Notes: a model not told the origin generated them from the letters alone. A DNA stretch of 64,000 bases from Nitrososphaerota archaeon (GCA_027339745.1 DAHWNW010000001.1:186001-250000); one strand, 5' to 3'; positions 7,163 to 52,337 are shown, counted from the first letter of the stretch. Program-made: numbers and translations.

Positions 7163-10100
7163 ATGCGGAACGTAGTACTCTTCAAAGACGCGCTCGGGGG
7201 GGACAAATTCCTCCTCGGCGGAAAGGGGTACGGCCTTGTGGAGATGACGTCGCTCGGCCTTCCCGTCCCTCCCGGATTCACCATCACGACGGAGGTCTGC
7301 AAGGCGTACTATGCGAACGGAGGCAAGGTCCCTGAAGGGCTCTTCGAGGAGGTCCGGACCGTGATATCTGAGGTCGAGGGCCAGACAGGGAAGAGGTTCG
7401 GCGGTGGGGAGAAGCCTTTGCTCTTCTCTGTCAGGTCGGGGGCACCGTTCTCCATGCCGGGGATGATGGACACGATCCTCAACCTCGGGCTGAACGACGT
7501 CACCGCCAAGCGGATGGCGGAGATCACGAAGAACGAGAGGTTCGCATACGACTCATACAGGAGGCTCATCCAGATGTTCGGTAAGGTCGCAATGGGCGCC
7601 GAGGGGGAAGCTTTCGAGAGGATCCTCGAGGCTAGGAGGAAGGCGTCTGGGGTCAAGATGGACATCGACCTCTCCTCCAAGGAGCTGAAGGGGGTCGCCG
7701 AGGAGTTCAAGAGAATCATCAAGGAGGAGACGGGCAAGGAGTTCCCTCAAGACCCATACGTCCAGCTCGAGATGGCCATCGTGGCCGTCCTCGGCTCGTG
7801 GAACAACGAGAGGGCGAAGGAGTACAGGAGGTTCTACAGCATCCCAGACGACCTCGGGACAGCGGTGAACGTCCAGGCCATGGTATTCGGGAATTTCGGA
7901 GAGAACTCCGGCTCCGGGGTCGGGTTCACCCGCAACCCATCGACCGGGGAGAAGAAGCTCTTCGGCGAGTACCTCCCCAATTCGCAGGGGGAGGACGTTG
8001 TGGCAGGGATACGGACCCCAGTGAGCATCGAAGGGATGCACCCAGCGCTGAAGGCGCGGCTTCAGGACGTGGCGAACCGGCTTGAAGCGCACTTCAAAGA
8101 CATGCAGGACTTCGAGTTCACGATCGAGGACGGGAAGCTCTACACGCTCCAGACGAGGAACGGAAAGAGGACCGCCCAGGCCGCTGTGAAAATCGCGGTG
8201 GACATGGCGAAGGAGGGGCTCATCACCGAAGAGGAGTCAGTGGCGAGAATCGAGCCGGACCAACTGGAGGCGCTCCTGCACAGGAGGCTAGACCCTGGCT
8301 CGAGGGACAGGCCGGTGGCGAGGGGGTTGGACGCGTCCCCCGGCGCGGCGTCAGGGAAGGTCGTGTTCGACACGGAGGAAGCTGCGTCCATCGGCGGTTC
8401 GCAGAAGATCATCCTCGTACGCCCAGAGACCACCCCTGAAGACATCAAGGGGCTGATCGCTTCCCAGGGGGTGCTCACGATGCGCGGGGGTATGACGTGC
8501 GTCGGCGGCGAGACGCTTTTGCTGACTGAGAATGGACTCACCACGGCTCGGGATCTATACCATGCGATAGAAGAGGGGCTTACGCCTTCAACCCTTTGCT
8601 TCGACCACGCTTCGGGCAAGTCTGTTTGGAGGAAGATTATCGCCACTGGGACAAGGCTCTCGCCAGCCATAGAGGTGGCTGTCTCTCAGACAGGAAGATC
8701 GACGATTAGCACAGTGAGAATCACCCCTGACCACAAGATGTTCACCATAACGAAGAGGAGGCTCTTGAAGAAGCCCCTTGAGGACCTCTTGGCAGAAGAG
8801 GGGTTCGCATGCGTGGTCGACAAAATCCCTGGTAAAGGGTCGAACAGCGTTCCTCAATTGGCCTACCTCGTGGGGGCGCTCTTCACCGATGGCCACGTGA
8901 GCCTCAAACGAACGAAAGGAAGCGTAACATTCACGCACGCCCTCGCGCCGGAGAAAGGAGAATTCATCGAAACCGTAAGCACCTTCTTCGAAGATGTGTT
9001 CGGGAGACGTTTCAACATCGAAAGAGTCGAGATGTCTGACGGGACAATTCGAGGCAGAACAATCTCAGGCGGCGCGCTCGATCTGATCAGCACGACGCGG
9101 GAACCTGCGGCTACGCTCTCGTCCATTTGGGACACGCTGGACTCTTGGGTGCTAAGTCTCGATGAGACATCGCTGCTGTATTTCATAGCCGGGGCCGCTG
9201 ACGGCGACGGAACTTACACCCCGAGCAGGATTCAGATCTTTAGCTCCGACAAAGGATTCGTGGCGGCACTAGAACTGGCGTGCCTCAGGCTTAGCATACT
9301 CCCCCAGGTATCCACTAACAGGACGATTTACAACGTGCAAATCGTCGAGAGGGTGCAAGACATCTTGTGTTACACTCACAGATTGAGAGGCGAGGTCCGG
9401 CCGCGTCACTATGGAACTAAGCTTTTCTCCGCGAAGAGTCTGGCTGGTGACGTCACCAATATCAAAGGAAACAGGAGAATCCTAGACTCTGTCGAGAGGA
9501 ACTTGCTCGTAGATGGGAGGAAGCTCCTCAGATATCTTGCGGCGTCGTCGCCTCCCGAAGTTGGCGCGGAAGTCGAACAGATACTTTCGTTCGATTTGAG
9601 AATGACCAGGGTGAGGAGTCTCGGTGCGGTAGGCGAGATAGAAGTGTACAACTTCGAGGTTGATGCGAAGGATGAACTGGACAAGAATTTTGTCGTGTTT
9701 ACGAAGTCCTTCGTGCCTGTCCTCGTATCCAACTCCCACGCGGCGGTGGTGGCAAGAGGGATGGGGAAGCCCGCTGTGGTCGGTTGCAGCGAAATCGAGA
9801 TTTCCATGGAAGGAGGCTTCTTCACGACCAAGTCCGGGGAGAGGATATCGAAGGGGGAAGCGATCACAATCGATGGGACGACAGGGTCGGTGTACAAGGG
9901 AGAGGTAAAGATGGTGGACCCTGAGCCGACCCCGGAGCTGACCTCCCTTCTGCAGGTTGCCGACAGGATCAAGCGTCTTGGTGTCTGGGCGAACGCCGAC
10001 ACCCCCGAGGCGGCTGCAAGGGCGAGGGAGTTCGGGGCAGAAGGGATAGGGCTGTGCAGGACGGAGAGGATGTTCAACGACCCGAAGCGCCTCCCCATTG

Positions 10101-11047
10101 TGAGGGACATGATAATGAGCGCGGACGTGGATGCACGGAAGAAGCACCTCTACCGACTCTTTCCGTTCCAGCTCTCGGACTTCAAGGGTATCTTCGCGGC
10201 CATGGGCGGCAGGCCGGTGGTGGTTAGGCTCCTCGACCTGCCTCTCCATGAGTTCCTCCCATCGGTGGAGGAGCTGCTCCTTGAGATGCAGGGGATGAAG
10301 GACAGAGGCGCCCCCGAAGAAGAGCTCGAGAGGGCGGAGACGATGCTCAACCGCGTGAGGCAGCTCTCGGAGCACAACCCAATGATCGGGCACCGGGGTT
10401 GCCGCCTCGCCATAACCCACCCTGAGATATACGAGATGCAGACGAAAGCCATCCTACAGGCAGCCGTCGAGCTCGACCGCGAGAAGAAGGCGCGCGGGAA
10501 GGTGAAGATAATGATCCCCCTGATCTCCACAGTCGAGGAGTTCACGACCCTGAGGAAGGTCGTCGAATCGGCCGCGGACGCCGCTTTCGATGAGTTGGGG
10601 GCGAAGATCGAATATCAGGTGGGGACGATGATAGAGACACCCCGGGCGGCGCTGACATCCGGCGAGATAGCGAAACACTCCGACTTCTTTTCGTTCGGCA
10701 CCAACGACCTGACGCAGACGACCTTCGGCTTCAGCAGGGACGACGTGGAGGCGAAGTTCATCCCCAAGTACCTTGAGGAAGGCATATTCCAGCGGAGCCC
10801 CTTCGACTCAGTGGATGTGGCGGGGGTCGGGCGGCTGGTCAAGCTGGCGGTCCAAGAGGGGAGGACATCAAACCCAGGGCTAGAGGTAGGCATATGCGGG
10901 GAGCATGGGGGGGACCCGAAGAGTATCGCTTTCTTCGCCGAGGCGGGGCTGGATTACGTCAGCTGCTCGGCTTTCAGGGTGCCTGTGGCAAGGCTGGCAG
11001 CCGCCCACGCCGCCCTCTCAGAGAAGTCGAAGGCAGTCACCGCGTAG
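7163..11047 (+). CDS. ppdK: Pyruvate, phosphate dikinase precursor interrupted by an intein
   Basis: The 1294-residue precursor encodes an 882-residue dikinase, the usual family length, after removal of a 412-residue intein. Extein order: ATP-grasp domain (mature residues about 1-340), phosphohistidine domain with GGMT/SHAAVVARG (His447 of the mature protein) and a C-terminal PEP/pyruvate TIM barrel with FGTNDLTQTTFG and VGICGEHGGDP. PPDK interconverts pyruvate + ATP + Pi with PEP + AMP + PPi, linking PEP to the pyruvate ferredoxin oxidoreductase encoded nearby. ATG 7163 has a strong GGAGGAGAGG just upstream and starts at the canonical N-terminus; the longer frame upstream is not used. A TATA-like CTTACAAAC lies near 7117-7125. 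Confidence 0.95.
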   Translation: MRNVVLFKDALGGDKFLLGGKGYGLVEMTSLGLPVPPGFTITTEVCKAYYANGGKVPEGLFEEVRTVISEVEGQTGKRFGGGEKPLLFSVRSGAPFSMPGMMDTILNLGLNDVTAKRMAEITKNERFAYDSYRRLIQMFGKVAMGAEGEAFERILEARRKASGVKMDIDLSSKELKGVAEEFKRIIKEETGKEFPQDPYVQLEMAIVAVLGSWNNERAKEYRRFYSIPDDLGTAVNVQAMVFGNFGENSGSGVGFTRNPSTGEKKLFGEYLPNSQGEDVVAGIRTPVSIEGMHPALKARLQDVANRLEAHFKDMQDFEFTIEDGKLYTLQTRNGKRTAQAAVKIAVDMAKEGLITEEESVARIEPDQLEALLHRRLDPGSRDRPVARGLDASPGAASGKVVFDTEEAASIGGSQKIILVRPETTPEDIKGLIASQGVLTMRGGMTCVGGETLLLTENGLTTARDLYHAIEEGLTPSTLCFDHASGKSVWRKIIATGTRLSPAIEVAVSQTGRSTISTVRITPDHKMFTITKRRLLKKPLEDLLAEEGFACVVDKIPGKGSNSVPQLAYLVGALFTDGHVSLKRTKGSVTFTHALAPEKGEFIETVSTFFEDVFGRRFNIERVEMSDGTIRGRTISGGALDLISTTREPAATLSSIWDTLDSWVLSLDETSLLYFIAGAADGDGTYTPSRIQIFSSDKGFVAALELACLRLSILPQVSTNRTIYNVQIVERVQDILCYTHRLRGEVRPRHYGTKLFSAKSLAGDVTNIKGNRRILDSVERNLLVDGRKLLRYLAASSPPEVGAEVEQILSFDLRMTRVRSLGAVGEIEVYNFEVDAKDELDKNFVVFTKSFVPVLVSNSHAAVVARGMGKPAVVGCSEIEISMEGGFFTTKSGERISKGEAITIDGTTGSVYKGEVKMVDPEPTPELTSLLQVADRIKRLGVWANADTPEAAARAREFGAEGIGLCRTERMFNDPKRLPIVRDMIMSADVDARKKHLYRLFPFQLSDFKGIFAAMGGRPVVVRLLDLPLHEFLPSVEELLLEMQGMKDRGAPEEELERAETMLNRVRQLSEHNPMIGHRGCRLAITHPEIYEMQTKAILQAAVELDREKKARGKVKIMIPLISTVEEFTTLRKVVESAADAAFDELGAKIEYQVGTMIETPRAALTSGEIAKHSDFFSFGTNDLTQTTFGFSRDDVEAKFIPKYLEEGIFQRSPFDSVDVAGVGRLVKLAVQEGRTSNPGLEVGICGEHGGDPKSIAFFAEAGLDYVSCSAFRVPVARLAAAHAALSEKSKAVTA
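8498..9733 (+). mobile_element. Intein with LAGLIDADG homing endonuclease inside ppdK
   Basis: The insertion starts at Cys446 (CVGGETLLLTENG, block A), has block B TVRITPDHKMF, two dodecapeptide motifs LVGALFTDG and FIAGAADGDG, block F (VYNFEVDAKDELDKNFVV) and ends LVSN before Ser of the extein. It lies exactly between Thr and Ser of the phosphohistidine motif GGMT/SHAA, so the host enzyme should be inactive until splicing. Both endonuclease motifs keep the acidic residue, so the homing endonuclease may be active. The penultimate residue is Ser rather than the usual His, an atypical but known kind of deviation. Confidence 0.93.
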
Positions 11048-42069: not shown

Positions 42070-42083
42070 GCGCCCTGGCCGGG
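42070..42083 (+). repeat. Left attachment site (attL) core
   Basis: GCGCCCTGGCCGGG is identical to 52194-52207. It corresponds to the discriminator, acceptor 3' strand and T-stem 3' strand of tRNA-Asp. The bases on either side differ from the right copy. Confidence 0.85.
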
Positions 42084-42179
42084 CATAAACGTTTGGGCGA
42101 TAACGCTCCAACCCGACACCCCCAGGAAATGGCCTATGAACTGTCGTAATTGATTCGATTCTGTCTTTTATGTTATGGT

Positions 42180-42359
42180 ATGTCAAACACCGGACGGCTG
42201 CACAAACCGAACGAAGCTGCCGAGCTCCTCAACGTGAGCAGGCAGACTATCTGGGCCTGGATCAAGAGGGGTAAGATCAAGGCCGTGAAGCTCCCTTCGG
42301 GACAGTACAGGATACCCGATTCGGAGATTGTGAGGATCCTGCAGGGGGCGAAAGAATGA
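42180..42359 (+). CDS. MerR/excisionase-type helix-turn-helix protein
   Basis: This 59-residue protein has the classic pattern KPNEAAELLNVSRQTIWAW followed by IKRGKIKAVKLPSGQYRIP (HTH_17/excisionase wing). It lies at the left end of the element, opposite the integrase, which is where a recombination directionality factor would fit. TAATTG near 42148-42154 is a possible TATA for leaderless ATG 42180. It overlaps the next gene as ATGA. Confidence 0.8.
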   Translation: MSNTGRLHKPNEAAELLNVSRQTIWAWIKRGKIKAVKLPSGQYRIPDSEIVRILQGAKE

Positions 42360-42502
42360 TGCGCCAGGTGGTTGCGCAAGAGCTCGACCGGTCCGTATCG
42401 GGTCGCTGTCCCTGCTGTGGATGCAAATGCCTTCAGTGCGTCCACACCAACCCTGGCGAGTGTTGCTCTGAGGGGTGCAACGTACCGGGGGTGAAAGAGT
42501 GA
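42356..42502 (+). CDS. Cysteine-rich microprotein, 48 residues
   Basis: The frame has RCPCCGCKCLQCVHTNPGEC and CSEGCN, about nine cysteines in 26 residues, suggesting one or two zinc sites or an Fe-S site. Start ATG overlaps the HTH stop (ATGA), and its stop is followed within 3 nt by the next start, so it is embedded in a coupled operon. No family recognised. Confidence 0.6.
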   Translation: MMRQVVAQELDRSVSGRCPCCGCKCLQCVHTNPGECCSEGCNVPGVKE

Positions 42503-42504
42503 GC

Positions 42505-42765
42505 ATGAAAGAACGTGACGAGCTGTACAGGAAGAGGCTCGAGGAAGCCCACTCCAAGGTCACGCAGGTAACAGTGCCAATCAGGCAAGGGCACTTGGAC
42601 CTGATCAGTTCCCTGTGCGACTCGACGAATTCACGCCTAGAAGATGTCCTACGGGGAATGCTCGAAGACTCGATTGAAGCAGCCAAGGACCACTTCGAGT
42701 ACGACACGATGAAGTTCCTCGAAGAGAGGTATCTTGGCTACGCGGCAACGAGAAAAGGTGTGTAG
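42505..42765 (+). CDS. Small helical protein of the element, 86 residues
   Basis: The sequence is highly charged and helical (KERDELYRKRLEEAHSKV, then VPIRQGHLDLISSLCDSTNS and RLEDVLRGMLEDSIEAA). The pattern VTVPIRQGHLDLISSL with following helices resembles a ribbon-helix-helix fold, a weak call. GTG 42499 could also start it with a GTGA overlap. It is in the operon 42180-43073. Confidence 0.6.
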   Translation: MKERDELYRKRLEEAHSKVTQVTVPIRQGHLDLISSLCDSTNSRLEDVLRGMLEDSIEAAKDHFEYDTMKFLEERYLGYAATRKGV

Positions 42766-42767
42766 GA

Positions 42768-43073
42768 ATGGCGTCTGAAGAGGGCTCGAGCTACACCGTG
42801 AAGCTCGAGCTCCCCAAGGAGGCGTACGACTTCATTAAGAATGAAGCGAAGAGGGAGAACAAGACTGTCGAGGAGTTCGTCGACCTGTGCATTCAGACAG
42901 AGATCGCGAGTAGGTTGATCTGCCTAGTCTATGACGAGAAACGGTCCCCTGAAGAGCTCGCCATCGACCTCGGCCTGGATGGGTACATCGTGGAAGGTAA
43001 GAAGGCATATGCGCCGGACTTCGAGATCTTTGGTCTTCGAGGTCGTGGGAGTCCCCAACCGGCCGAGCCCTAG
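42768..43073 (+). CDS. Small RHH-like protein of the element, 101 residues
   Basis: The N-terminal YTVKLELPKEAYDFIKNEAK followed by NKTVEEFVDLCIQTEI resembles a MetJ/Arc (RHH) strand-helix-helix unit. The C-terminal part is acidic with a Gly/Pro tail. It begins 2 nt after the previous stop. Likely a DNA-binding regulator; target unknown. Confidence 0.6.
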   Translation: MASEEGSSYTVKLELPKEAYDFIKNEAKRENKTVEEFVDLCIQTEIASRLICLVYDEKRSPEELAIDLGLDGYIVEGKKAYAPDFEIFGLRGRGSPQPAEP

Positions 43074-43136
43074 CGTCGACTATTCGACTTTCGAGCTGTG
43101 GACCCTGGGGTACTAGGCCGCGAAATGCGAAGTCTG

Positions 43137-43310
43137 CTAGCGTGGGGCACCCTGGCTGGCGGCCCCCTTCTTCTTGATCAATGGAGATAGACCCAACCGA
43201 GCCCTGTCTGCAGGATCCTTCACAGCCGAAGTCAGGCAGGAATCGCAGTAGTAGCGGTCTCGATAGAACGTCAACCTTGGTTGCTGATTCGGTGTCTTTC
43301 CCTTGCTCAT
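43137..43310 (-). CDS. Basic microprotein with one Cys pair, 57 residues
   Basis: From ATG 43310: TFYRDRYYCDSCLTSAVKDP then a basic tail LIKKKGAASQ. It contains a single Cys-x2-Cys pair. A minus-strand box GTTTTTACC (about 43333-43341) lies 27 nt upstream, as in the host's leaderless genes, supporting transcription. Function unknown. Confidence 0.52.
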   Translation of the reverse strand: MSKGKTPNQQPRLTFYRDRYYCDSCLTSAVKDPADRARLGLSPLIKKKGAASQGAPR

Positions 43311-43330
43311 GTCACGAGTTACATCGGGGC

Positions 43331-43510
43331 ACTAGGTAAAAACGGTTCAAAACAGGTAACAAGGTAACGCCATGACAGATAGTAAACTCTTGACGTGCTA
43401 AATCAGTTCAAAATGGTAGACGCTCGTGTAACGCCACCTGAGTTTACTCATACGAAAAGGGGTGTGGTGACGGGGTGACAAACAGGGGAGGTAAAAATGG
43501 TAGACAAGTC
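43331..43510. repeat. AT-rich region with short repeats, candidate origin or control region
   Basis: It includes AGTAAACTC at 43381-43389 with its exact complement GAGTTTACT at 43440-43448. GGTAAC occurs twice (43355-43360, 43363-43368), and GTAACGCC recurs in this stretch and near 43428-43435. AATGGTAGAC occurs twice (near 43412 and 43496), and GTTCAAAA twice. It lies between oppositely oriented small genes and is the most AT-rich stretch of the element, a pattern like iteron-bearing origins. Confidence 0.5.
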
Positions 43511-43541
43511 GCATGAGGCGGCTGTCCTATGAGCTCATGCC

Positions 43542-43790
43542 CTATGCGGCTTGGCGCTTCTCGGTGGCCGTCTTCCTGAAAGTGGTGTCGCACTCATCAC
43601 ACTCCCACAGGAAGACGTGGGTTATGGCGCTCGTAGGAGGGGATCCCATGGGCTTTCCCTCGAGTGTCCACCACTTCGAGACTGATATGCTCGTACTGCC
43701 ACAGGTCTTACACGTCAGACCAGGGAAGAGAGAGGAGATCTCCCCAATCTCCTCTTCAGTGGCGTCGTCGAACGTCCCCTTTGGTCTCAT
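43542..43790 (-). CDS. Zinc-ribbon protein, 82 residues
   Basis: It has LTCKTCGSTSISVSKWW and LWECDECDTTFRKTAT, giving two Cys-x2-Cys pairs about 32 residues apart, a transcription-factor-S-like zinc ribbon. It follows the RHH protein gene by 22 nt in the same direction and probably shares its transcript. It may bind DNA or RNA polymerase; no family assigned. Confidence 0.65.
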   Translation of the reverse strand: MRPKGTFDDATEEEIGEISSLFPGLTCKTCGSTSISVSKWWTLEGKPMGSPPTSAITHVFLWECDECDTTFRKTATEKRQAA

Positions 43791-43812
43791 TCGGACATTA
43801 CTCCTATAGGTC

Positions 43813-44328
43813 CTAGAAGTGGATGCCGAGGATGCCGACTCCTTCGTCTTCCTCCTGCTTCTCTGACTCGGAGTCTGTTTCTTTCACGGAGTCGGCTTTC
43901 TCCCTGGCTTTCTGCGTGGTCTTCTCTTCGTCTTTCTCTAGGCGCTTGGCCAGCCTCTTGTCGTATTCGTCTAAGGTCCAGTCGACGAACTTCTTGAATT
44001 CCTCTTCGGTGGTGAAGAGGAAATAGGCCTCCTTGCCGGCCCTGTCGTGCACCTTGAAGTCGAAGGCGATCGCGTTGTTGACCAGTTCCGACCGAGAGAT
44101 GTCCTGTTCGTCGGCTCGGTCCGCAATCTCCGAAATGAGTTTCGGAGAGAGTGATACCGTGATGGGTACTCGTTTGATGGTCTCGATATCCTTCGGGGGT
44201 CGTCCTCGGCGTGGGCGTGTTTCTTCGGTGCTTTCTTCGGTTCCCTCGACCTGGTCGATGGAAGGCAGTTCCTTCGCAATACTCTCGACCTCGGTTGAGG
44301 GTTTTTCGGTTGGAAGTTCTTTCTCCAT
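43813..44328 (-). CDS. RHH DNA-binding protein with AT-hook-like motif
   Basis: This 171-residue protein has an acidic N-terminus, RPRRGRPPKD (AT-hook-like GRP core), then an RHH segment RVPITVSLSPKLISEIADRA and SRSELVNNAIAF, then a long charged Glu/Lys tail. It is likely a transcription or partition regulator of the element. It lies 54 nt after the GNAT gene in the same direction. AATTAAC-type boxes near 44345-44357 could be its promoter. Confidence 0.72.
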   Translation of the reverse strand: MEKELPTEKPSTEVESIAKELPSIDQVEGTEESTEETRPRRGRPPKDIETIKRVPITVSLSPKLISEIADRADEQDISRSELVNNAIAFDFKVHDRAGKEAYFLFTTEEEFKKFVDWTLDEYDKRLAKRLEKDEEKTTQKAREKADSVKETDSESEKQEEDEGVGILGIHF

Positions 44329-44382
44329 ACTCTCTAAAAGGAATTAATTGTTAATTCGGAAGTTCGACCAGTGGTTCGTTTC

Positions 44383-44919
44383 TTATCGTGACCGACGCTT
44401 TAGACTGGGACCGCGCATTCCCAAATCGAAATACATGGGCACGTTGTTCTTTCCAGGGTCCTGTGGCAGAGCCTTGAAGCCAAGATATCTTTCATAGTGG
44501 TCCTTTCTGTCTAGTTCCGCATCGAGAATCACAAACCTACATCCTACTTCACGCGACAACTCGTAGGCTCTGCTTCTGACCCACGCAACCATTATCTTCC
44601 CTACCCCTTTGTTCCTGTACCGTTTGTCCCGCGCCATCTGGCCAAGGAGTAGGCATGGGATCTTTGAGAAACGATGTGAATCCTGCAAGCTCTTCGGGAG
44701 GTCGCTTCTCTTGAGCGAACTCATTGCCAAGGTCACATAACCTATGATGTCGCTGCCAACCCGAAAGAGATAGGTCACACTCGTGTTTTCTGCTTCGAGT
44801 CTTTTCGCTTGATTCTTGTCTTGTAGGAATGTGGTGTACCCGACTTTCTCGCATTGGAAATGCGAGCATTCTGAGGGAGACTTGAACCTTGAGACAGTTA
44901 CCTCTCTGGCAGAAATCAC
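44383..44919 (-). CDS. GNAT acetyltransferase, probable TacT-like toxin
   Basis: This 178-residue protein has IPCLLLGQMARDKRYRNKGV followed by GKIMVAWVRSRAYELSREVG, FVILDAELD and HYERYLGFKALP. This is the layout of the GNAT toxins that acetylate aminoacyl-tRNA, including the LLGxMAxDxxYRxxGxG acetyl-CoA loop. It starts at GTG, 12 nt after a 59-residue gene that looks like the matching antitoxin. A non-toxin role remains possible. Confidence 0.7.
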   Translation of the reverse strand: MISAREVTVSRFKSPSECSHFQCEKVGYTTFLQDKNQAKRLEAENTSVTYLFRVGSDIIGYVTLAMSSLKRSDLPKSLQDSHRFSKIPCLLLGQMARDKRYRNKGVGKIMVAWVRSRAYELSREVGCRFVILDAELDRKDHYERYLGFKALPQDPGKNNVPMYFDLGMRGPSLKRRSR

Positions 44920-44931
44920 ACGAAAGGTAGG

Positions 44932-45111
44932 TTATTCTTGGACTTTAATCTTGCTGGCTAGCCTCAGATCTGCCTGAAGGCGTCGCTGCATCTCCTTTGG
45001 TGCGGGCCTGTCTAGTCGCTCCGCTAGGAATTCCCACTGCGCTTTCGTCAAATCAGGGACTGGTTTCGGCAGCAATTTTATCGCCTTAGTGGGTAGGTAG
45101 GTATCAAGCAT
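44932..45111 (-). CDS. Small protein upstream of the GNAT gene, candidate antitoxin, 59 residues
   Basis: The frame reads LPTKAIKLLPKPVPDLTKAQ then WEFLAERLDRPAPKEMQRRL. The C-terminal W-x-F/L-x3-LD-x-P pattern recalls the toxin-neutralising tail of DUF1778-type antitoxins (FLxxLDxPP), but an N-terminal RHH DNA-binding domain is not evident. AAATTTATAT overlaps the ATG and AAAAAATTT lies at about 45128-45137, so the promoter is close. TTG 45075 is an alternative start. Confidence 0.55.
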   Translation of the reverse strand: MLDTYLPTKAIKLLPKPVPDLTKAQWEFLAERLDRPAPKEMQRRLQADLRLASKIKVQE

Positions 45112-45220
45112 ATAAATTTACGTATACGGAAATTTTTTCACAACCCGGGAACGTGAAATCTGTGAGATTCAGACACCAGTACCTTATAAGCCTGTGAAAG
45201 GAGGTCCCAGGTGTCAGCTA

Positions 45221-45236
45221 CGCCCCGCTCAGGGCG
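45221..45236. terminator. GC-rich hairpin
   Basis: CGCCC (45221-45225) pairs with GGGCG (45232-45236) around a 6-nt loop, in a 150-nt gap between the ATPase gene end and the antitoxin promoter. It could be a 3' hairpin of the ATPase transcript; no adjoining T-run is seen, so the role is uncertain. Confidence 0.3.
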
Positions 45237-45263
45237 GCTTGATGCCCTGCGGTTACTTCAAAC

Positions 45264-45962
45264 CTAGAGGCCCGTATTTTGACTTCTCTCTGCAGTCGTG
45301 GATTCCCAGGGTTGTGGCTTAAATGCCTTGGCGATGTCTCCAAACTGACGCCAGTCGGTAGTGACAAGAATCAGCTTCCGTACGAACTTCCTAGCCTCGA
45401 TCAGGAGAGCTCTCAGGTTGGGGTCCGAGCCGAAGCGGTGTCCCTCTTCGATTACGAGACACCAATTCTTCAAAGCCCCGGAGTTCTTGACGAAATTCAG
45501 GTGCGAGAAGATTGTGGCTGCTTCGGCCTTGGAGATCTCGACGTTGGAGTTAGGCGTGAACCGGACCCTCTGATCAGGCCGTTCCCACTTGAGCGCGAAG
45601 AAACCGCCCAAGTCCACGTCTTTGAATTCGTTGTACTCGCCCGACACGTCGAGGACGAAGACGTTACCCCCGAACTGTGATAGCAGGCCCTTCACGCATG
45701 TGGTCTTCCCTGCGCCCGACTGACCTGTGATCAGGCAGGGCCGCGAGCCTAGCTTCTCGAAGACTTGATCATATGAAGCGGGAGGGACAGCGCCTTCCCT
45801 GGTGATCTCGAGAATCGTGTAATTGAAGAGGGCGTCGTACGTACGGAAGCCGAGCTCTTTCTTCAGGGCCTTCAGGCGTTCCCGAAGGGAATAGGCCACT
45901 CGAAAAGTTGTGAACCTAGGTGGACTCTTCGGCTGCGCCTGTTCGTCTGTTATGTCGGTCAT
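45264..45962 (-). CDS. HerA/FtsK-like P-loop ATPase with N-terminal RHH-like segment
   Basis: From ATG 45962 the protein has 232 residues: a strand-helix-helix FRVAYSLRERLKALKKELGF and YDALFNYTILE (RHH-like), Walker A GQSGAGKTTC (80-89), VFVLDVSGEYNEF and a Walker B-like WCLVIEEGHRFG. The layout is that of HerA/FtsK or A32-type DNA translocases, used for DNA packaging in archaeal viruses and for transfer in plasmids. It is shorter than cellular HerA. The DNA-pumping role is inference. Confidence 0.72.
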   Translation of the reverse strand: MTDITDEQAQPKSPPRFTTFRVAYSLRERLKALKKELGFRTYDALFNYTILEITREGAVPPASYDQVFEKLGSRPCLITGQSGAGKTTCVKGLLSQFGGNVFVLDVSGEYNEFKDVDLGGFFALKWERPDQRVRFTPNSNVEISKAEAATIFSHLNFVKNSGALKNWCLVIEEGHRFGSDPNLRALLIEARKFVRKLILVTTDWRQFGDIAKAFKPQPWESTTAERSQNTGL

Positions 45963-46022
45963 GTATAGTAAAAGGAACAAACAGTGTAATTGTGGGGGCG
46001 CCCTTGGTCCTGCCTTGAAGAG

Positions 46023-46066
46023 AGCCCTTCGTGAAGGGCTTGCAAGTATTCGTAACTATACGAATA
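46023..46066. repeat. Two adjacent perfect palindromes
   Basis: AGCCCTTC (46023-46030) pairs with GAAGGGCT (46033-46040). TATTCGTA (46047-46054) pairs with TACGAATA (46059-46066). They lie between the stop of the membrane protein gene and the ATPase promoter, so they could terminate the one or regulate the other. Confidence 0.55.
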
Positions 46067-46101
46067 TCCAAGCAGAAAGCATGCGAAACCGAGAATGGAG
46101 C

Positions 46102-46731
46102 CTAGCGGATCAAGGAACTATGTTTGGGTCGACTTCTTGAGGCAGCGACGCTTGCCAGAGCCGTGATGACAATTCCAAGGGCACTAACCACCGCACCCAC
46201 TACACTTGTGTTGATCGTCCAATGTTGCGGTATCTGGCCATATGCCACAAAGGCGCCAATCGGAGGGGTGCCACCGCTCACGTAGTTCTGAACATAGCCT
46301 CCCAGGCCGAAATAGTAGGTGTCTCCTTTGCTGATGAACCATTCGGTCGCATTAACCTTTGCTTTCAGGTCGAGAGAAGAGCAATACGATGCTGCACAAA
46401 GTCCATTCTCGCTCGCGTTCTTCCATGCTTGGTATCCCGAGGAGTTGTACACGTATACGTCCGTGAGGTAGTAGGAGGCGTCATAATACGAGGGAGCTCC
46501 CACGGCAATGGTGACGTTAGTTCCTGCAGGAATGTAGACACCACCGAATTGAGGAGACCCGTCCCCAGACATTGGAGCAGGGAGGGGTCCGACAAGCAAC
46601 TTCGTTTGGGGTGATGTCGGAATTTGGAGCGTAGACATTAAGACAGGCAGGAATATGCCAAGAATGGTCAGGAGCACCCCAACCCCGACCAGAAGTGCCC
46701 AATGTCTCACCATCAGGTTGGGAATCTTCAA
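46102..46731 (-). CDS. Two-TM membrane protein with a glycosylatable extracytoplasmic domain
   Basis: This 209-residue protein has TM1 at about residues 10-32, an outside domain of about 135 residues rich in Tyr/Ser/Gly with N-glycosylation-like sequons (NVT, NSS, NAS, NAT, NTS) and two cysteines (NGLCAASYC), then TM2 at about 175-197 and a basic tail. The topology is like surface or virion membrane proteins, but no family is recognised. It is the only clear membrane protein of the element. Confidence 0.7.
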   Translation of the reverse strand: MKIPNLMVRHWALLVGVGVLLTILGIFLPVLMSTLQIPTSPQTKLLVGPLPAPMSGDGSPQFGGVYIPAGTNVTIAVGAPSYYDASYYLTDVYVYNSSGYQAWKNASENGLCAASYCSSLDLKAKVNATEWFISKGDTYYFGLGGYVQNYVSGGTPPIGAFVAYGQIPQHWTINTSVVGAVVSALGIVITALASVAASRSRPKHSSLIR

Positions 46732-46881
46732 TTCCTCGCAACTTCTTGGACCTCATGACCTTCTTATTCATATCCCTGTTGAAAGCGGTCACGTCGTTCG
46801 TTCAATCCCTCCCGTTAGGCTCTTTCTAAGCGTCGTTCAGATGACGCCAAGTTGCCAGAGCCTGCCTCAAGAGGGGTACTT

Positions 46882-47688
46882 TCACTTGACAGTGTACGCG
46901 GGCTGCTCGCTCATAGAATAGGAAATTTTCAGGCCGTCAAGAACAGCCCAATAGGTATCGATGTACCTCAGCATGATATCGAAGGCCCTTGTAAGTGAAG
47001 TATGATCTTTGAAGTCAGACTTCGCTCGGGTGCAGGCCAAGCGCACAGCCTTCACTAGAACGGACAGTTGCGAAGTTATCTGTTCCTTGGTTGCTGAATT
47101 CCACGCCTTCAGCTCGTCTTCCTCGATAGGTTTTGACATATTCTTTTTCACGAGCTCCTTTGAATCAAGGAGGGGTCGCGGGAATTCCTTTTCGAATCCT
47201 ACGGCCGAGGTGACTTCGTAGAAGAAGCGTTCAAGATCAACCAAGATTCGAGTTAGCTTCCCGAACTCGAACAGGTCGGACCAAAACAGCTTGCCCTTAG
47301 AACTCAGGGCTAATCCATGATAGAGCTCTGTGAAACCCGTCAACCTCACGAGAGCATCTTCTATCCGAAGGAGATCATCTTTCAGAGAAGCCTTGTCGAG
47401 TTTGGAAAGTTCGGCTCTTCCCTTGGCATCAAAAAATGCAGAAACGACCGAATGTCTTTCCGACACTTCTGCCTGTTCTTTGATGTACTCGAGGGTCAGC
47501 TCCCCAGATTCAGTTAGTGTGTACTTCGCCGTCTCGGTCTTGATCAAGAGACCTTGCTTCTGAAGGTCCTTGAGATGTGTCTGTATGACCGGATCGCTAA
47601 TTCCCAGCTTTGATTTCAGTTCAGTGTACGTTACCGGCTCCTTGGCTAACTCGAGAAGTTTCTCCTTCGTGCTCGGCCCTCGTTGCAT
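46882..47688 (-). CDS. Winged-helix transcriptional regulator with C-terminal sensor-like domain
   Basis: From ATG 47688 the protein has 268 residues. The N-terminal winged helix (KLLELAKEPVTYTELKSKLG, then IQTHLKDLQKQGLLIKT and YTLTESG) is ArsR/HTH_45-like; the rest is helical with no recognised domain. The start is placed 30 nt from TTTAA at 47716-47720, a box apparently shared with the divergent AbrB gene. It is probably a control gene of the element. Confidence 0.75.
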   Translation of the reverse strand: MQRGPSTKEKLLELAKEPVTYTELKSKLGISDPVIQTHLKDLQKQGLLIKTETAKYTLTESGELTLEYIKEQAEVSERHSVVSAFFDAKGRAELSKLDKASLKDDLLRIEDALVRLTGFTELYHGLALSSKGKLFWSDLFEFGKLTRILVDLERFFYEVTSAVGFEKEFPRPLLDSKELVKKNMSKPIEEDELKAWNSATKEQITSQLSVLVKAVRLACTRAKSDFKDHTSLTRAFDIMLRYIDTYWAVLDGLKISYSMSEQPAYTVK

Positions 47689-47715
47689 ATCGGCATACCA
47701 TAGCACGACGCTATG

Positions 47716-47720
47716 TTTAA
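47716..47720. promoter_or_regulatory. Shared TATA box between winged-helix regulator and AbrB genes
   Basis: TGTTTAAGTA is centred near 47718, 30 nt from ATG 47688 (minus) and 28 nt from ATG 47746 (plus). Both genes would be leaderless and compete for one TBP site. Confidence 0.6.
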
Positions 47721-47745
47721 GTATTACGAAGCAGAGGCCTCTGCT

Positions 47746-47991
47746 ATGCTAGCCACCGAAGTCGTGGCACAACAGTTAGGACGAAGCTCTCTCGTCATGA
47801 CCGTACCCTCAATTTGGGCGAAGAGCGTCGGCCTTCAGAAAGGGGACCCACTGCGAATCGAATTCCTCCCCGATGGCTCTCTTAGGATTGTTCCGCTGAA
47901 GGATAATCAGAATGGGGCGGGAGTATCGAGCTCCCAAGCCCCGGAGTCTTCGGACGTCCCCGCGACCAAGCAAGGAGGTCCTACACCTTAG
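47746..47991 (+). CDS. AbrB/SpoVT-type DNA-binding protein
   Basis: This 81-residue protein from ATG 47746 has the swapped-hairpin pattern QQLGRSSLVMTVPSIWAKSV followed by KGDPLRIEFLPDGSLRIVPL, then a Ser/Pro tail. AbrB-like proteins act as transition-state regulators or antitoxins. It is the first gene of a run of overlapping genes to 50998. A strong GGAGGT lies inside its last codons (47974-47979). Confidence 0.78.
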   Translation: MLATEVVAQQLGRSSLVMTVPSIWAKSVGLQKGDPLRIEFLPDGSLRIVPLKDNQNGAGVSSSQAPESSDVPATKQGGPTP

Positions 47992-48188
47992 AAAAGCAGA
48001 ACACTCCTGGCGACCGTTTACGTGGATCGGTCCGTGTTGCCCGGAAGGTCGGAATACCCAATTACGGCTCTTTCGACTTGGAGTATGAGCAAGAGTTCCT
48101 ACTTTCCGAGTCCACACATGAGGAAATCGCTGACCGACTGGTCGTACGGGTCAGGCTGAAACTGCGGGAGTGGGGAATCGTGAAATGA
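47988..48188 (+). CDS. ORF without a standard start codon, between abrB and the primase/helicase
   Basis: In the -1 frame relative to abrB, the codons from 47988 read LEKQNTPGDRLRGSVRVARK and on to LVVRVRLKLREWGIVK, and the stop overlaps the next start as ATGA. The frame is open from 47907 but has no ATG or GTG, and its only TTG is internal near 48077. GGAGGT lies 8 nt before TTA 47988. Translation could follow a -1 frameshift at the abrB stop, or use the internal TTG. The product resembles no family I know. Confidence 0.4.
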   Translation, partial: LEKQNTPGDRLRGSVRVARKVGIPNYGSFDLEYEQEFLLSESTHEEIADRLVVRVRLKLREWGIVK

Positions 48189-49966
48189 GCGAAGAGCCCT
48201 CTCTCTGCCCCAAATGCGGCAAAGTTCTAGTCGAGGTCTCGGGAAGCGGTGGCAGATTCCTCGAGTGCGTCTGCGGGTACAAATTCGACACTCATCTTTC
48301 AAGGGAAGTCTCGACCGAACCTACGGAGTCCATTGTCCAGGAGCGCGCCAGCGGACAGAATGTCAGAGAGCTCGCCTACGAACTCGCCGAACAGATAACA
48401 GGGTCGGACGCCTTCGTGACTATCAACGGCTCAGAGGAAATCCTGCACTACGAGGGAGGCATATACCAAGATGGCGGCGAATTCACGATCAAGAGCAAGG
48501 TGCAACAGCTCGCAAGCCCAAGGGACCTGGGGAACAACCTAGTAGCAGAAGTCCTGGGCAACGTTCGAAGGTCGACCTACGTCCAGGCCGAGCGATTCAC
48601 CGAGACGTCTCCCCTTGTGGTCCTCGATAATGGAATCCTCGACGTTGACTCGTACAAAGTCCTCCCACACACACCCGACCATTACGCGCTCAGCAAGCTA
48701 CCCGTGAAGTTCGACCCCTCCGCAGACTGTCCGAAGATCAAGAAGTTCCTGAGTGAAATCTTGTACCCCGAGGACTTGCCCTTCATCCAGGAGTGGGCGG
48801 GATATCACCTTTGGAGGGGTTACCCCACGGCCGTAGCCGCCCTCTTCGTCGGAGAGGGTGCCAATGGGAAGTCTACACTAATTGGGCTCTTCAGAGCGTT
48901 CCTTGGCCCAAAGAACGTCGCTGCGATTCCCCTTCAGGCATTCGAAAGGAACACCTTCGCGAAAGCGGGACTCATGGGGAAGATGGCGAACCTGTACCCA
49001 GACCTGAGCGATGAAGCCCTGAAGCAAGTCGGTACGTTCAAGGCGCTCACGGGGGGAGATATGCTCACCGCAGAGAAGAAGTTCGGGCAACCCTTCAACT
49101 TCGCAAACTACGCGAAGCTCACATTCTCCTGCAACGTGGTCCCTGAAGTCTGGGAGGACACAGAGGCGTTCTTCAGACGGATTTGGATTGTTTCGTTTCC
49201 TAACACGTTCCAGGGTGAGAAAGCAGACCGTGACTTGCTCGCCAAATTGACTACGCCCGAAGAGCTCTCGGGGTTTCTGAATTGGTCCCTGGAAGGTCTG
49301 AAGAGACTCCGAGCAAACGGCTGGCGTTTCACGGGCACCCGATCAACCGCTGACATAAAGGCCGATTACATACGCCGGAGCGACACTGTAAGGGCGTTTC
49401 TCATTGGTTGCACCAAGAAGGCAACCACTACATTCGTCACAAAGGACGACCTGTACAACTCCTACTGCGCCTACTGCCGGAAGAGGAACCTCGTTGCTAG
49501 GAACCGGGATGCATTCTTTGACAAGCTTCCCCAGTTCGGCCAGTTTACCAAGGCTCAACGGACAGTCGCGGGTAAGAGGAAGTGGGTGCTCGAGGGTCTT
49601 GAACTCCTGACCGAAGACGCTTGGGAGAAGGTCCCGAACGAAGACGCTGAGCCCGCCTTAAATGGTGATTTGCCTGTGCAGTCTGTGCAGACTGTGCAGG
49701 ACAGGCTTTCGGATGCACAACCTGCACGACCTGCACAGCCGGCCGACGATTTAAGGGGAGGTCAGGTTGGACAGCAACTAGAGGCAGGGAAGCAACCGAC
49801 CGAGGAAGCCGATGGACCCAAGGCCCGCCTGATTCGACCGAAGTGTTCGGTTTGCGGAGTGGTACTATCGACACCCGAGCATCCGACTATCTTCACCATG
49901 AAAGGGAAGCACTATTGCATGGAGCACTTTCCCAAGAAAGGGACGAAGGAGGAATCCTCGGATTGA
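48185..49966 (+). CDS. D5-type primase/SF3 helicase replication protein
   Basis: This 593-residue protein has an N-terminal zinc ribbon (CPKCGKVLVEV and CVC, Cys8/11/28/30), a D5_N-like region at about residues 60-210, Walker A GEGANGKST (223-231), the SF3 motif C-type LTFSCNVVPEVWEDTEAFFR and arginine-finger RRIWIV. The C-terminus ends with a second Cys motif CSVCG...YCMEHF. Such proteins initiate replication of archaeal plasmids and viruses. ATG 48185 overlaps the preceding stop; GTG 48170 is an alternative. Confidence 0.85.
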   Translation: MSEEPSLCPKCGKVLVEVSGSGGRFLECVCGYKFDTHLSREVSTEPTESIVQERASGQNVRELAYELAEQITGSDAFVTINGSEEILHYEGGIYQDGGEFTIKSKVQQLASPRDLGNNLVAEVLGNVRRSTYVQAERFTETSPLVVLDNGILDVDSYKVLPHTPDHYALSKLPVKFDPSADCPKIKKFLSEILYPEDLPFIQEWAGYHLWRGYPTAVAALFVGEGANGKSTLIGLFRAFLGPKNVAAIPLQAFERNTFAKAGLMGKMANLYPDLSDEALKQVGTFKALTGGDMLTAEKKFGQPFNFANYAKLTFSCNVVPEVWEDTEAFFRRIWIVSFPNTFQGEKADRDLLAKLTTPEELSGFLNWSLEGLKRLRANGWRFTGTRSTADIKADYIRRSDTVRAFLIGCTKKATTTFVTKDDLYNSYCAYCRKRNLVARNRDAFFDKLPQFGQFTKAQRTVAGKRKWVLEGLELLTEDAWEKVPNEDAEPALNGDLPVQSVQTVQDRLSDAQPARPAQPADDLRGGQVGQQLEAGKQPTEEADGPKARLIRPKCSVCGVVLSTPEHPTIFTMKGKHYCMEHFPKKGTKEESSD

Positions 49967-50901
49967 CGCTCGCCACCCCGGCCTCTACCGACGCTCAAAT
50001 CAGACTGAATGGGCATAACGGAGCCCAGTTCAGGCCCTGTTTTCCACCCAAGCATACTTGTGGCGCACCACTTCAACACGACCTCTTCCTGTGGATCTAC
50101 CAGCACCCTTCATCGATGCTGAAACAGGCCGCTGAAGAAATGCACAAGCCATACAGTCTGATCACGAAGACGGCCCATAAGCTCCGGAAGCGCGCCGATT
50201 ACCGGGTCCTCTGCCCTTTCTGTTTCTCACCCGGACGAATTGATCATGCCGGAGGCGTTGGAGGAATTGCGTCAGATGCGACCGAAGATTCCTCATGTTG
50301 TGTGACATGTGGAATCGAATTCGACGGACGGCCGAGGCGGGAGGTCGATTTCGACTTACAGTCACCGGTCCATACCCTTCTGCCCGGTAGGGGTCTTGGT
50401 TCGTACCTCAAATTCAGTGAATACCAGAAGCTCGCCAGGCTCTCGATTTCCGGATCGGAAAAGGAAACCCTAACGGGTTCGCAAGTCAACAAGCTCGTCA
50501 ACAATCTAGCAGCCGTGATGAAGCAACAAGGGAATGGGAACGAGGATTCTCTAGTCAGCCATATCAAGAGTGACGTACTGCAGGTTCTGAAAGAAACATG
50601 TCCCGACGACAGGATTTCTGACGAAGCTTCGTCGATAGCGGAGGACGAAGTCAGAGAGTTCCGCTTGAGGTACCAACTCAAACACACCCCTCACGGTCTG
50701 CGAGAATCGATTGCCGCACGTGTTATTGGCAAGCTCGAGATCCTTCACCCGGAGTTACGCGGACGCCTTCGCCTTCCTGAACACACTTCCAAGCACAAGA
50801 AAGAGACTACCAGACTACCGCCTAAACCGTCAGCAGCGGCGTCAGATCTCGACTTCGAAAATGAAGAACGTGGGTTTTTAGGAAGTGAAGGTAATGAGTG
50901 A
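49963..50901 (+). CDS. Zinc-ribbon protein downstream of the primase/helicase
   Basis: From TTG 49963 (TTGA overlap) the protein has 312 residues. A helical N-terminal part (LFLWIYQHPSSMLKQAAEEM, resembling a winged helix) is followed by a zinc ribbon CPFCFSPGRIDHAGG to CVTCGIEFDGR, reminiscent of TFB/TFIIB ribbons, then a helical region and a basic tail. It probably assists replication or transcription of the element. No family assigned. Confidence 0.68.
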   Translation: MTLATPASTDAQIRLNGHNGAQFRPCFPPKHTCGAPLQHDLFLWIYQHPSSMLKQAAEEMHKPYSLITKTAHKLRKRADYRVLCPFCFSPGRIDHAGGVGGIASDATEDSSCCVTCGIEFDGRPRREVDFDLQSPVHTLLPGRGLGSYLKFSEYQKLARLSISGSEKETLTGSQVNKLVNNLAAVMKQQGNGNEDSLVSHIKSDVLQVLKETCPDDRISDEASSIAEDEVREFRLRYQLKHTPHGLRESIAARVIGKLEILHPELRGRLRLPEHTSKHKKETTRLPPKPSAAASDLDFENEERGFLGSEGNE

Positions 50902-50998
50902 ATCGAAAGCTGAGGAGATAGTAGTCTTGTCGAAGCGGGACTTTGACGAGATCATTGAAACGTTGAAGCGGGCCCGCGACCTACTTTCTAGGCTCTAG
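50894..50998 (+). CDS. Short helical protein, 34 residues
   Basis: From ATG 50894: VVLSKRDFDEIIETLKRA then RDLLSRL. It resembles the short dimerization helices often found at the ends of plasmid operons. The start overlaps the preceding stop by 8 nt and its end overlaps the convergent integrase gene by 18 nt. Confidence 0.42.
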   Translation: MSESKAEEIVVLSKRDFDEIIETLKRARDLLSRL

Positions 50999-52150
50999 CC
51001 GCTTTAGGATTTCGTCTACTTTCGCCTTAAGGTCCTCCAGTTCGACAGAGGACATTGCGAGCTCCCTCTGATCAAGAGGCGTCCCGCATCTACCACAGAA
51101 ACGCATCCCTGGCGAGTTCCTCTCCTGGCAGCGTGCGCACACCACAGGACGAAAGGCCGGTTCTGCAGGTTTGATTTCCTTCCCCGAGTACACACCTAGA
51201 AGCGCGTCGTCTACCGTCTTCTCGTCCTTGATGTGCGTGTAACGAGCCGCCATCCTCGAGCCCTTCGCCCACCCGTACCTGATCTCGAGAAGCCGTTCGT
51301 TGATGTTGTATGAAGCGTCCCGGGTCGCCGCTGAATGCCTGAAGAGGTGTGGGTAGATCCTCTTCTTGATTCCCGCCCTCCCTGCTACCCTGAGAATCGC
51401 TTCCCTCGTGGTCATGTACGCCATCCTCTTCCCTGCATTCCTCCCACTACCGACAGGGTTGATCCACAGGGGCGAGCTCGGCTCTGACCTGAAAGGGTGT
51501 TCGTCAATGTACCTGGTCAGAAGGGGCGCCGATGCTACGAGCCTTACGGATCTCGAACCGGTCTTCCCATGGACGTTGACCTTGGCACCGCTTTCATCGA
51601 ACGTTGCATCCTTGATCTCCATCCCCAAGAGCTCGCCGATCCTGAAGCCTCCTTCGTAGGCCACGGCAATCAGCGCCTTGTCCCTGGTCGAAGTCGCGGC
51701 CTCAATCATCTTCCTTGCTTCGTCCTCGGTGATAACCTCGGGCTCTTTCGTTTCGTTCTTCTTGATCGAGGTATCTACCCAGGCGACTTCCGGCGGGTAC
51801 TGTGTCTTCCTGTCCCCGTTCCCGTACCTCACGAACTTGTAGAACTTCTTGAGGATCTTCTTGTGGTCGGACTTCGTGTTGGCCGTGTACTCGGACGAGT
51901 GAATCTCAGCTACTAGCCGTTCAATGTCCTTCCGCGTTGCCGCTTTGAAGGTCCGCGGAGCGAGCCTCTTTCTGATGTCGACGAGGGTCCACGTGATCTT
52001 GTAAAGCCGCCCCGTGCTCAGTCCTTGGGCCTTCAGGTGGTCGAGGTAGGCCCTGATCAGCTTCCTGTCTTCCGGGCTCTCGACCAGGCCGTCGAGCCTC
52101 TTCAGGTACGAGGCCAGTTTCTTCCCGTAGAAGTGTATGTCTTCGGCCAT
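50981..52150 (-). CDS. Tyrosine recombinase (integrase)
   Basis: This 389-residue protein has a core-binding SAM-like domain (about residues 25-110) and a catalytic domain with Arg170 (AYEGGFRIGELL), Lys196, HLFR (His268, Arg271), Trp294 and Tyr304 (ARYTHI). A C-terminal zinc ribbon (CARCQERNSPGMRFCGRCG) and a helix follow. All catalytic residues are present, so it should be active. It is uninterrupted (not split as in SSV-type integration) and sits 44 nt from the right att repeat. Confidence 0.93.
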   Translation of the reverse strand: MAEDIHFYGKKLASYLKRLDGLVESPEDRKLIRAYLDHLKAQGLSTGRLYKITWTLVDIRKRLAPRTFKAATRKDIERLVAEIHSSEYTANTKSDHKKILKKFYKFVRYGNGDRKTQYPPEVAWVDTSIKKNETKEPEVITEDEARKMIEAATSTRDKALIAVAYEGGFRIGELLGMEIKDATFDESGAKVNVHGKTGSRSVRLVASAPLLTRYIDEHPFRSEPSSPLWINPVGSGRNAGKRMAYMTTREAILRVAGRAGIKKRIYPHLFRHSAATRDASYNINERLLEIRYGWAKGSRMAARYTHIKDEKTVDDALLGVYSGKEIKPAEPAFRPVVCARCQERNSPGMRFCGRCGTPLDQRELAMSSVELEDLKAKVDEILKRLEPRK

Positions 52151-52193
52151 CCCACCATGTAAAAGGGGTAAGGGCGTTATCGTGCAGATGGGT

Positions 52194-52207
52194 GCGCCCT
52201 GGCCGGG
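52194..52207 (+). repeat. Right attachment site (attR) core inside tRNA-Asp
   Basis: GCGCCCTGGCCGGG is identical to 42070-42083. Read on the tRNA strand it spans the base after the discriminator to position 61. The next base (T60) is unmatched, and beyond it lies the T-loop intron. Confidence 0.85.
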
Positions 52208-52208
52208 A

Positions 52209-52224
52209 CTTTCGTCTCAGTGAT
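52209..52224 (-). other. T-loop intron of tRNA-Asp (position 59/60)
   Basis: ATCACTGAGACGAAAG (16 nt, minus strand) interrupts the T-loop between A59 and T60; without its removal the T-arm cannot form. Introns here are rare and known mainly from some Thermoproteota. Confidence 0.78.
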
Positions 52225-52245
52225 TTCGAACCCGGGTCGCTGCCG

Positions 52246-52265
52246 CTCTGTCGGCTCTGAGCCGA
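52246..52265 (-). other. Canonical anticodon-loop intron of tRNA-Asp (37/38)
   Basis: TCGGCTCAGAGCCGACAGAG (20 nt, minus strand) contains the palindrome CGGCTC/GAGCCG. Its removal yields a perfect 7-nt loop with anticodon GTC. Confidence 0.82.
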
Positions 52266-52337
52266 TGACAGGGCAGCATACTGACCTCTATACGACCAGG
52301 GCGCCAGAAAGTGGTCAGCTCAGGGTGGTTTTAAGCT

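Follow-up and report, generated by a model that had tools for sequence, protein, structure and literature searches.

The DNA analysed in this study, a stretch of 64,000 nucleotides referred to here as the window, contains an element of ~10 kb (positions 42084-52193) bounded by two exact copies of the 14-bp sequence GCGCCCTGGCCGGG, one at 42070-42083 and the other at 52194-52207. No third copy is found on either strand of the window, ~0.002 copies would be expected by chance in 64 kb, and the right-hand copy forms the 3' end of a tRNA-Asp gene. The GC content of the element is 53.8%, compared to 61.7% for the remainder of the window, and its main ORFs are all intact. The features of the locus are as follows.

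42070-42083, no strand: left att copy (14 bp; exact repeat, single copy at empty sites)
42098-42106, no strand: possible integrase arm site CGATAACGC (inverted match to 52174-52182)
42180-42359, plus: HTH_17/MerR-type excisionase-like protein (Pfam HTH_17 1.3e-14; PHROG excisionase 1.7e-11)
42356-42502, plus: 48-aa Cys-rich ORF (no family match in Pfam)
42505-42765, plus: small ORF g03 (also present, at 73%, in the decayed copy)
42768-43073, plus: 101-aa ORF, weakly RHH-like (RHH_5 E=0.16 only; kept in the decayed copy)
43542-43790, minus: 82-aa zinc-ribbon-like ORF (weak Pfam matches)
43813-44328, minus: 171-aa protein with an RHH-like segment (RHH_1 below cut-off)
44383-44919, minus: GNAT acetyltransferase, possibly a toxin (PF00583 over cut-off; toxin role inferred)
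44932-45111, minus: 59-aa ORF, a candidate antitoxin solely by its location upstream of the GNAT gene
45264-45962, minus: compact HerA/DUF87-type ATPase with an RHH-like N-terminus, the family signature (DUF87 over cut-off; alignment; hhalign)
46102-46731, minus: 209-aa TM-ectodomain-TM membrane protein (hydropathic segments 13-31 and 177-195)
46882-47706, minus: 274-aa winged-helix regulator (Pfam HTH_11 and others)
47713-47991, plus: MazE/AbrB-type DNA-binding protein (PF04014 1.3e-8)
48185-49966, plus: SF3 (D5/P4-type) helicase with zinc ribbon (TIGR01613 5.7e-55; DUF5906, D5_N; PHROG primase families)
49963-50901, plus: HTH/zinc-ribbon protein g14, 312 residues, directly behind the helicase (homologues in G148, G081 and UBA164)
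50981-52150, minus: tyrosine integrase with C-terminal zinc ribbon (PF00589 8.9e-22; catalytic motifs; 48% to the UBA164 integrase)
52174-52182, no strand: possible integrase arm site GCGTTATCG (inverted match to 42098-42106)
52194-52207, no strand: right att copy, the 3' end of tRNA-Asp (exact repeat)
52195-52302, minus: tRNA-Asp(GTC) with anticodon-loop and T-loop introns, the integration target (sequence reading; kept in nine genus genomes)

An initial annotation had proposed exact att repeats, an intact integrase and a replication module at this locus, and each of these proposals stands: the 14-mer occurs only twice, the integrase is full length with its R170, HLFR268 and RYTH303 motifs (R, HxxR, Y), and replication is represented by the SF3 helicase. 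The 312-residue zinc-ribbon protein, described there as matching no known family, is instead a conserved protein of the element family and not an orphan. Among the Pfam and NCBIfam matches of the helicase no primase domain was recognised, and a search of the element for an origin yielded nothing beyond a few short repeats at 43334-43505. Relaxing the Pfam threshold to E=10 gave no match for the 59-aa ORF. Screening with PADLOC gave nothing but generic HerA and winged-helix matches, and a defence-system reading was rejected.

The tRNA-Asp gene was missed by both ARAGORN and Rfam because it appears to carry two introns, which by sequence reading measure ~20 nt (anticodon loop) and ~16 nt (T-loop). 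The gene with both introns is present in all nine of the genus genomes compared (seven distinct loci), and the T-loop intron of the genus tRNA-Asp directly adjoins the att core. The idea that this intron sets the length of the att was ruled out, since the FK4_bin.88 element, which lies in an intronless tRNA-Asp, also has a 13-bp att. When attP is rebuilt, the core lies between the two halves of a 9-bp inverted pair, GCGTTATCG/CGATAACGC; a match of this kind arose in 31 of 5000 shuffles, and the pair may represent an integrase arm site.

The window belongs to a 762-kb MAG that is 60% complete. The host is most likely a soil archaeon of the Gagatemarchaeaceae (Nitrososphaerota), because a genome of the same family (G133) matches contig PLUF01000090.1 of Candidatus Gagatemarchaeum stordalenia. 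This family corresponds to group I.1c of the Nitrososphaerota, for which, to our knowledge, few mobile elements have been described.

Empty sites, a decayed copy and a family of elements

Three related genomes (G097, G145 and G088) have an empty site at this position, with a single att; the flank on the glycosylase side lies ~0.3-0.5 kb from the MFS gene. In one related species (G160/G044/G066), the same tRNA is occupied by a decayed element copy of ~1.2 kb, which keeps element bases 1-281 (88%), 400-752 (77%) and 9652-10103 (88%) and consists of the left-end genes and, joined to them, the integrase's N-terminal third; this sister copy marks both ends of the element independently. It was counted as one locus since the bins are cross-contaminated, the contigs being 99.94% identical where compared (L097 versus L103). 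Identity to the sister copy is 88% at the element ends, 77% in the middle and 69-79% in the flanks, a pattern that is only suggestive of horizontal arrival of the sister copy.

Cross-binning is apparent in these public MAGs as near-identical contigs shared across MAGs (L097/L103/G066:C16 at 99.94% and L094/L095 at 100%), and G044 and G066 each contain two versions of the tRNA-Asp locus as a result of such contamination. A different stretch of ~9.8 kb lies beside tRNA-Asp between the same flanking genes in G154 and G066 (L095 1803-11504, identical to L094); it encodes a solute-binding protein, an ATPase and secreted proteins, and no second att was seen there.

Whole-genome and named-contig searches identified relatives of the element in other Gagatemarchaeaceae and in farther Nitrososphaeria (UBA164, FK4_bin.88 and other families). 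The relatives, with the percentages for shared proteins, are listed below.

G148:C3: ATPase 60%, helicase 74%, g14 29%
G081, on two contigs: HTH_17 70%, ATPase 77%, helicase 46%, g14 29%
UBA164: ATPase 56%, helicase 41%, g14 25%, integrase 48%, HTH_17 44%; 13-bp att in tRNA-Gly
FK4_bin.88: decayed, 3.7 kb, broken integrase; 13-bp att in tRNA-Asp
G014: ATPase 32%, helicase 45%; 12-bp att in tRNA-Ala
G028 and G148:C1: further family elements, G148:C1 being a distant member

The att-flanked integrated element thus belongs to a family that spans several host families and has a conserved ATPase-helicase core: the ATPase occurs in seven of the seven substantial elements, the SF3 helicase in six and g14 in four, together with exchangeable tyrosine integrases. 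Fragments of the ATPase were also found in G133, G059 and G067. The att-bounded elements measure 9.1 kb in G014 and 13 kb in UBA164. In UBA164 and FK4_bin.88 the att core again comprises the T-stem 3' strand and acceptor end (CCCGGCC...), and the integrases are related to that at 50981-52150, while those of G148, G081, G014 and G028 fall into different groups (15-21% identity), which indicates that the integrase has been exchanged as the ATPase and helicase, with g14 in four elements, stayed together. Homologues of the HTH_17 protein occupy the same element end in G081, UBA164 and the decayed copy, and separate primase genes are carried by the UBA164 and G014 elements. Proteins of 274, 276 and 284 aa occupy the same place in three elements; they were excluded from the core since they have no significant similarity to each other. 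Related elements also contain ParE-like and PIN toxin-type genes, and two-TM proteins of 76 and 89 aa are encoded by G148:C3.

Several other features of the relatives were observed. The contig of the G148:C1 element encodes a 653-aa secreted protein with a C-terminal TM (L047 716-2677), possibly a surface or spike-type protein. In FK4_bin.88 (L107 9141-10336) a transposase-like gene pair lies directly at the ATPase gene of a second family element; this gene is broken, apparently interrupted by the pair. In UBA164 (L104 5892-5962 and 18922-18993) there is a broken repeat of ~70 bp at the att (blocks of 15, 13 and 13 bp in register), which exceeds the att core alone in length.

The ATPase, its membrane neighbour and the search for virus and transfer genes

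The ATPase scores 26.0 bits against DUF87 (Pfam cut-off 23.2), and its Walker A/B and DUF87-type motifs place it in the FtsK-HerA superfamily. Six members can be aligned over their full length, with an invariant Walker A, D..xEY, an acidic Walker B followed by HRF, and E-x-RK; another residue stands in place of the usual sensor Gln, and there is no HAS-barrel. In hhalign comparisons the ATPase matched the host's own DUF87 protein (82% over 121 columns) and the STIV ATPase (52% over 113 columns), His1 gp16 weakly (32% over 44 columns), and HRPV VP8 and SSV1 B251 little. The core of the structure model is predicted with a pLDDT of ~90. A fold search of the PDB with this model returned generic matches, while the viral fold matches at E<=1e-3 included the Corticoviridae NTPase, Zot, the PH1 ATPase and several A32-like packaging ATPases. 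Apart from DUF87/HerA, the matches of the ATPase profile in the PDB (Midasin and kinases) were judged to be P-loop noise. The N-terminus gives a weak indication of being RHH-like, in the form of a match in one member (E=0.037).

The neighbouring 209-aa protein, the only membrane protein encoded by the element, had no relatives in any search, including a scan of IMG/VR. Its single-sequence structure model reached a pLDDT of 49.7, at which the ectodomain is unusable. The closest parallel is a 207-aa UBA164 protein with identical TM positions and zero sequence similarity. A gene for a membrane or secreted protein adjoins the ATPase in six of the seven elements (P ~5e-4, an approximate value from hand-curated gene lists), and these proteins are not homologous to each other across elements.

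Searches with Pfam, PHROGs, NCBIfam, phage records and six archaeal virus genomes identified no capsid or spike genes, the only matches being to integrases, the helicase and a ParE-like toxin. Likewise, no VP3/VP4-type, relaxase, VirB4/VirD4 or Rep genes were found in the element using Pfam, PHROGs, NCBIfam and the archaeal virus genomes. IMG/VR contained no relative when scanned with the ATPase, the ATPase profile, the 209-aa protein, the helicase and the g14 profile, and neither the ATPase nor g14 had a relative among phage records. Comparison with individual virus groups gave no VP3- or VP4-like match to the HRPV1, GacPV1 and ThalV2 ORFs (Pleolipoviridae), and at the sequence level no spindle-type capsid match to the SSV1 or His1 ORFs (Fuselloviridae/Halspiviridae). 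For double jelly-roll proviruses there was no match to the STIV1 ORFs and no Pfam or PHROG capsid, and the neighbour of the ATPase is a TM protein. With respect to archaeal conjugative elements, nothing could be recognised at the sequence level beyond the compact ATPase and a single two-TM protein. The initial annotation had suggested a packaging/transfer-type ATPase, a 209-residue membrane protein of no known family, and the lack of any recognisable capsid or relaxase gene, and all three suggestions agree with these results.

Nature of the element and comparison with known systems

On a modest balance of probability, we interpret the element as plasmid-like and integrative, a cryptic integrated element (CIE) representing a newly recognised family in the Nitrososphaeria whose transfer would be driven by its ATPase. 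The tyrosine integrase would have recombined at the 3' end of tRNA-Asp, with the excisionase-like HTH_17 gene located at the opposite end of the element. After excision, a circular form would replicate, with the helicase or g14 recognising its origin, and this member would use the primase and polymerase of its host, since other members carry their own primase. The ATPase may bind element DNA via its RHH-like N-terminus and move it to, or across, a membrane site built jointly with the two-TM 209-aa protein, and from there to other cells. Although movement of DNA by the ATPase with a membrane partner is probable, the route of transfer is conjecture since no known conjugation, mating-pair or vesicle gene is present. 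By analogy with the ParE- and PIN-type toxin genes of relatives, the GNAT gene and the 59-residue ORF could constitute a stability module.

The evidence leans towards a plasmid rather than a virus because relatives in IMG/VR and structural homologues are both absent. A temperate virus would require a membrane-rich virion of pleomorphic, spindle-like or filamentous form that has escaped recognition, with the ATPase packaging or extruding the genome and the TM-ectodomain-TM protein serving as a surface or structural component. We consider this unlikely: most of the viral proteins with a predicted fold like that of the ATPase are packaging or extrusion ATPases, and the best integrase match among phage records is to the pleomorphic viruses GacPV1 and ThalV2 (33%), but the six archaeal virus genomes and PHROGs contain no VP3/VP4-like, spindle or capsid homologue, and the ATPase and g14 have no relatives among phage records. 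Similarly, the small two-TM proteins of G148:C3 and the secreted protein of G148:C1 would suit a virion, while the present element has a single membrane protein gene. A shade more doubtful is the specific proposal of a new virus or virus-like agent in which a DNA-binding, single-polypeptide ATPase and a fast-evolving TM-ectodomain-TM protein export the ~10-kb genome in a membrane particle devoid of any known capsid protein.

It is equally improbable, at about the level of a temperate virus, that the element is an integrative plasmid incapable of transferring itself, with the RHH-like ATPase acting in partition or copy-number control. A DNA-binding domain fused to an ATPase, together with stability-type genes, is typical of plasmid maintenance, and the elements are small and without transfer genes; however, the ATPase is HerA-like rather than ParA-like and adjoins membrane proteins. 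Such a plasmid would move by natural uptake, in vesicles or by piggy-backing, the last of which has been discussed by Krupovic et al. (PMC6563490). The remaining alternative, in which a larger provirus or conjugative element has decayed until just its integrase and replication genes are left, is very improbable, for although decayed family copies exist (1.2 kb in G160 and the cross-binned copies, 3.7 kb in FK4_bin.88), the main ORFs here are all intact and the att-bounded G014 and UBA164 elements share the same core with no capsid or conjugation genes.

Under the preferred interpretation of an integrative, plasmid-like family, the RHH-like/HerA-type ATPase supplies a signature gene where most integrated elements of Thaumarchaeota have been filed as 'cryptic' with no such gene. 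With this signature, att-defined members of 9-13 kb and empty sites, the excision, replication and transfer of the family become open to testing, and elements of such small size are candidates for shuttle vectors.

Compared to known systems, the element resembles the Pleolipoviridae-like GacPV1 and ThalV2 in its related integrase and similar genome size, but it lacks VP3, VP4 and a rolling-circle Rep, and its ATPase is unrelated to HRPV VP8 beyond the P-loop. In the PL6-family plasmids of Haloquadratum and in His1 gp16, a DNA-binding domain is fused to a small ATPase for which a packaging role has been proposed (PMC5974055). The likeness lies in a small cryptic archaeal replicon with such an ATPase and a membrane protein; however, the DNA-binding domain is a C-terminal winged helix in those systems and an RHH-like N-terminus here, and the hhalign match to gp16 is weak. 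The CIEs of Thaumarchaeota are integrase-defined and mostly <20 kb, target tRNA 3' ends (including those of intron-containing tRNAs), carry varied replication genes including SF3 helicases, have no capsid or conjugation module, and are reported to lack signature genes (Krupovic et al. 2019; PMC6563490). The element agrees with them in its integrase and att repeats at the 3' end of an intron-bearing tRNA, its small size, its SF3 helicase, and the absence of recognisable capsid, conjugation or casposase genes, and differs in its conserved ATPase-helicase-g14 core and its hosts (Gagatemarchaeaceae and UBA164-type). The element had been called one of an apparently undescribed type, which holds only in part: it fits this published catch-all class (PMC6563490), while its gene set was not found described and defines a multi-genome family. 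A literature search reaching few subscription journals returned no paper on an ATPase-defined family. The pT26-2 family of Thermococcales and Methanococcales comprises integrative plasmids in which a HerA/VirB4/B204-like ATPase beside membrane proteins is proposed to move DNA; its members are 17-38 kb, with seven core genes and many TM proteins, and are confined to those two orders (PMC6972569). By its published description this family differs from the present element, which is ~10 kb with one TM protein and lies in other hosts; with its integrative nature and its pairing of a HerA-type ATPase with membrane proteins, pT26-2 is nevertheless the system whose proposed working mode is most similar.
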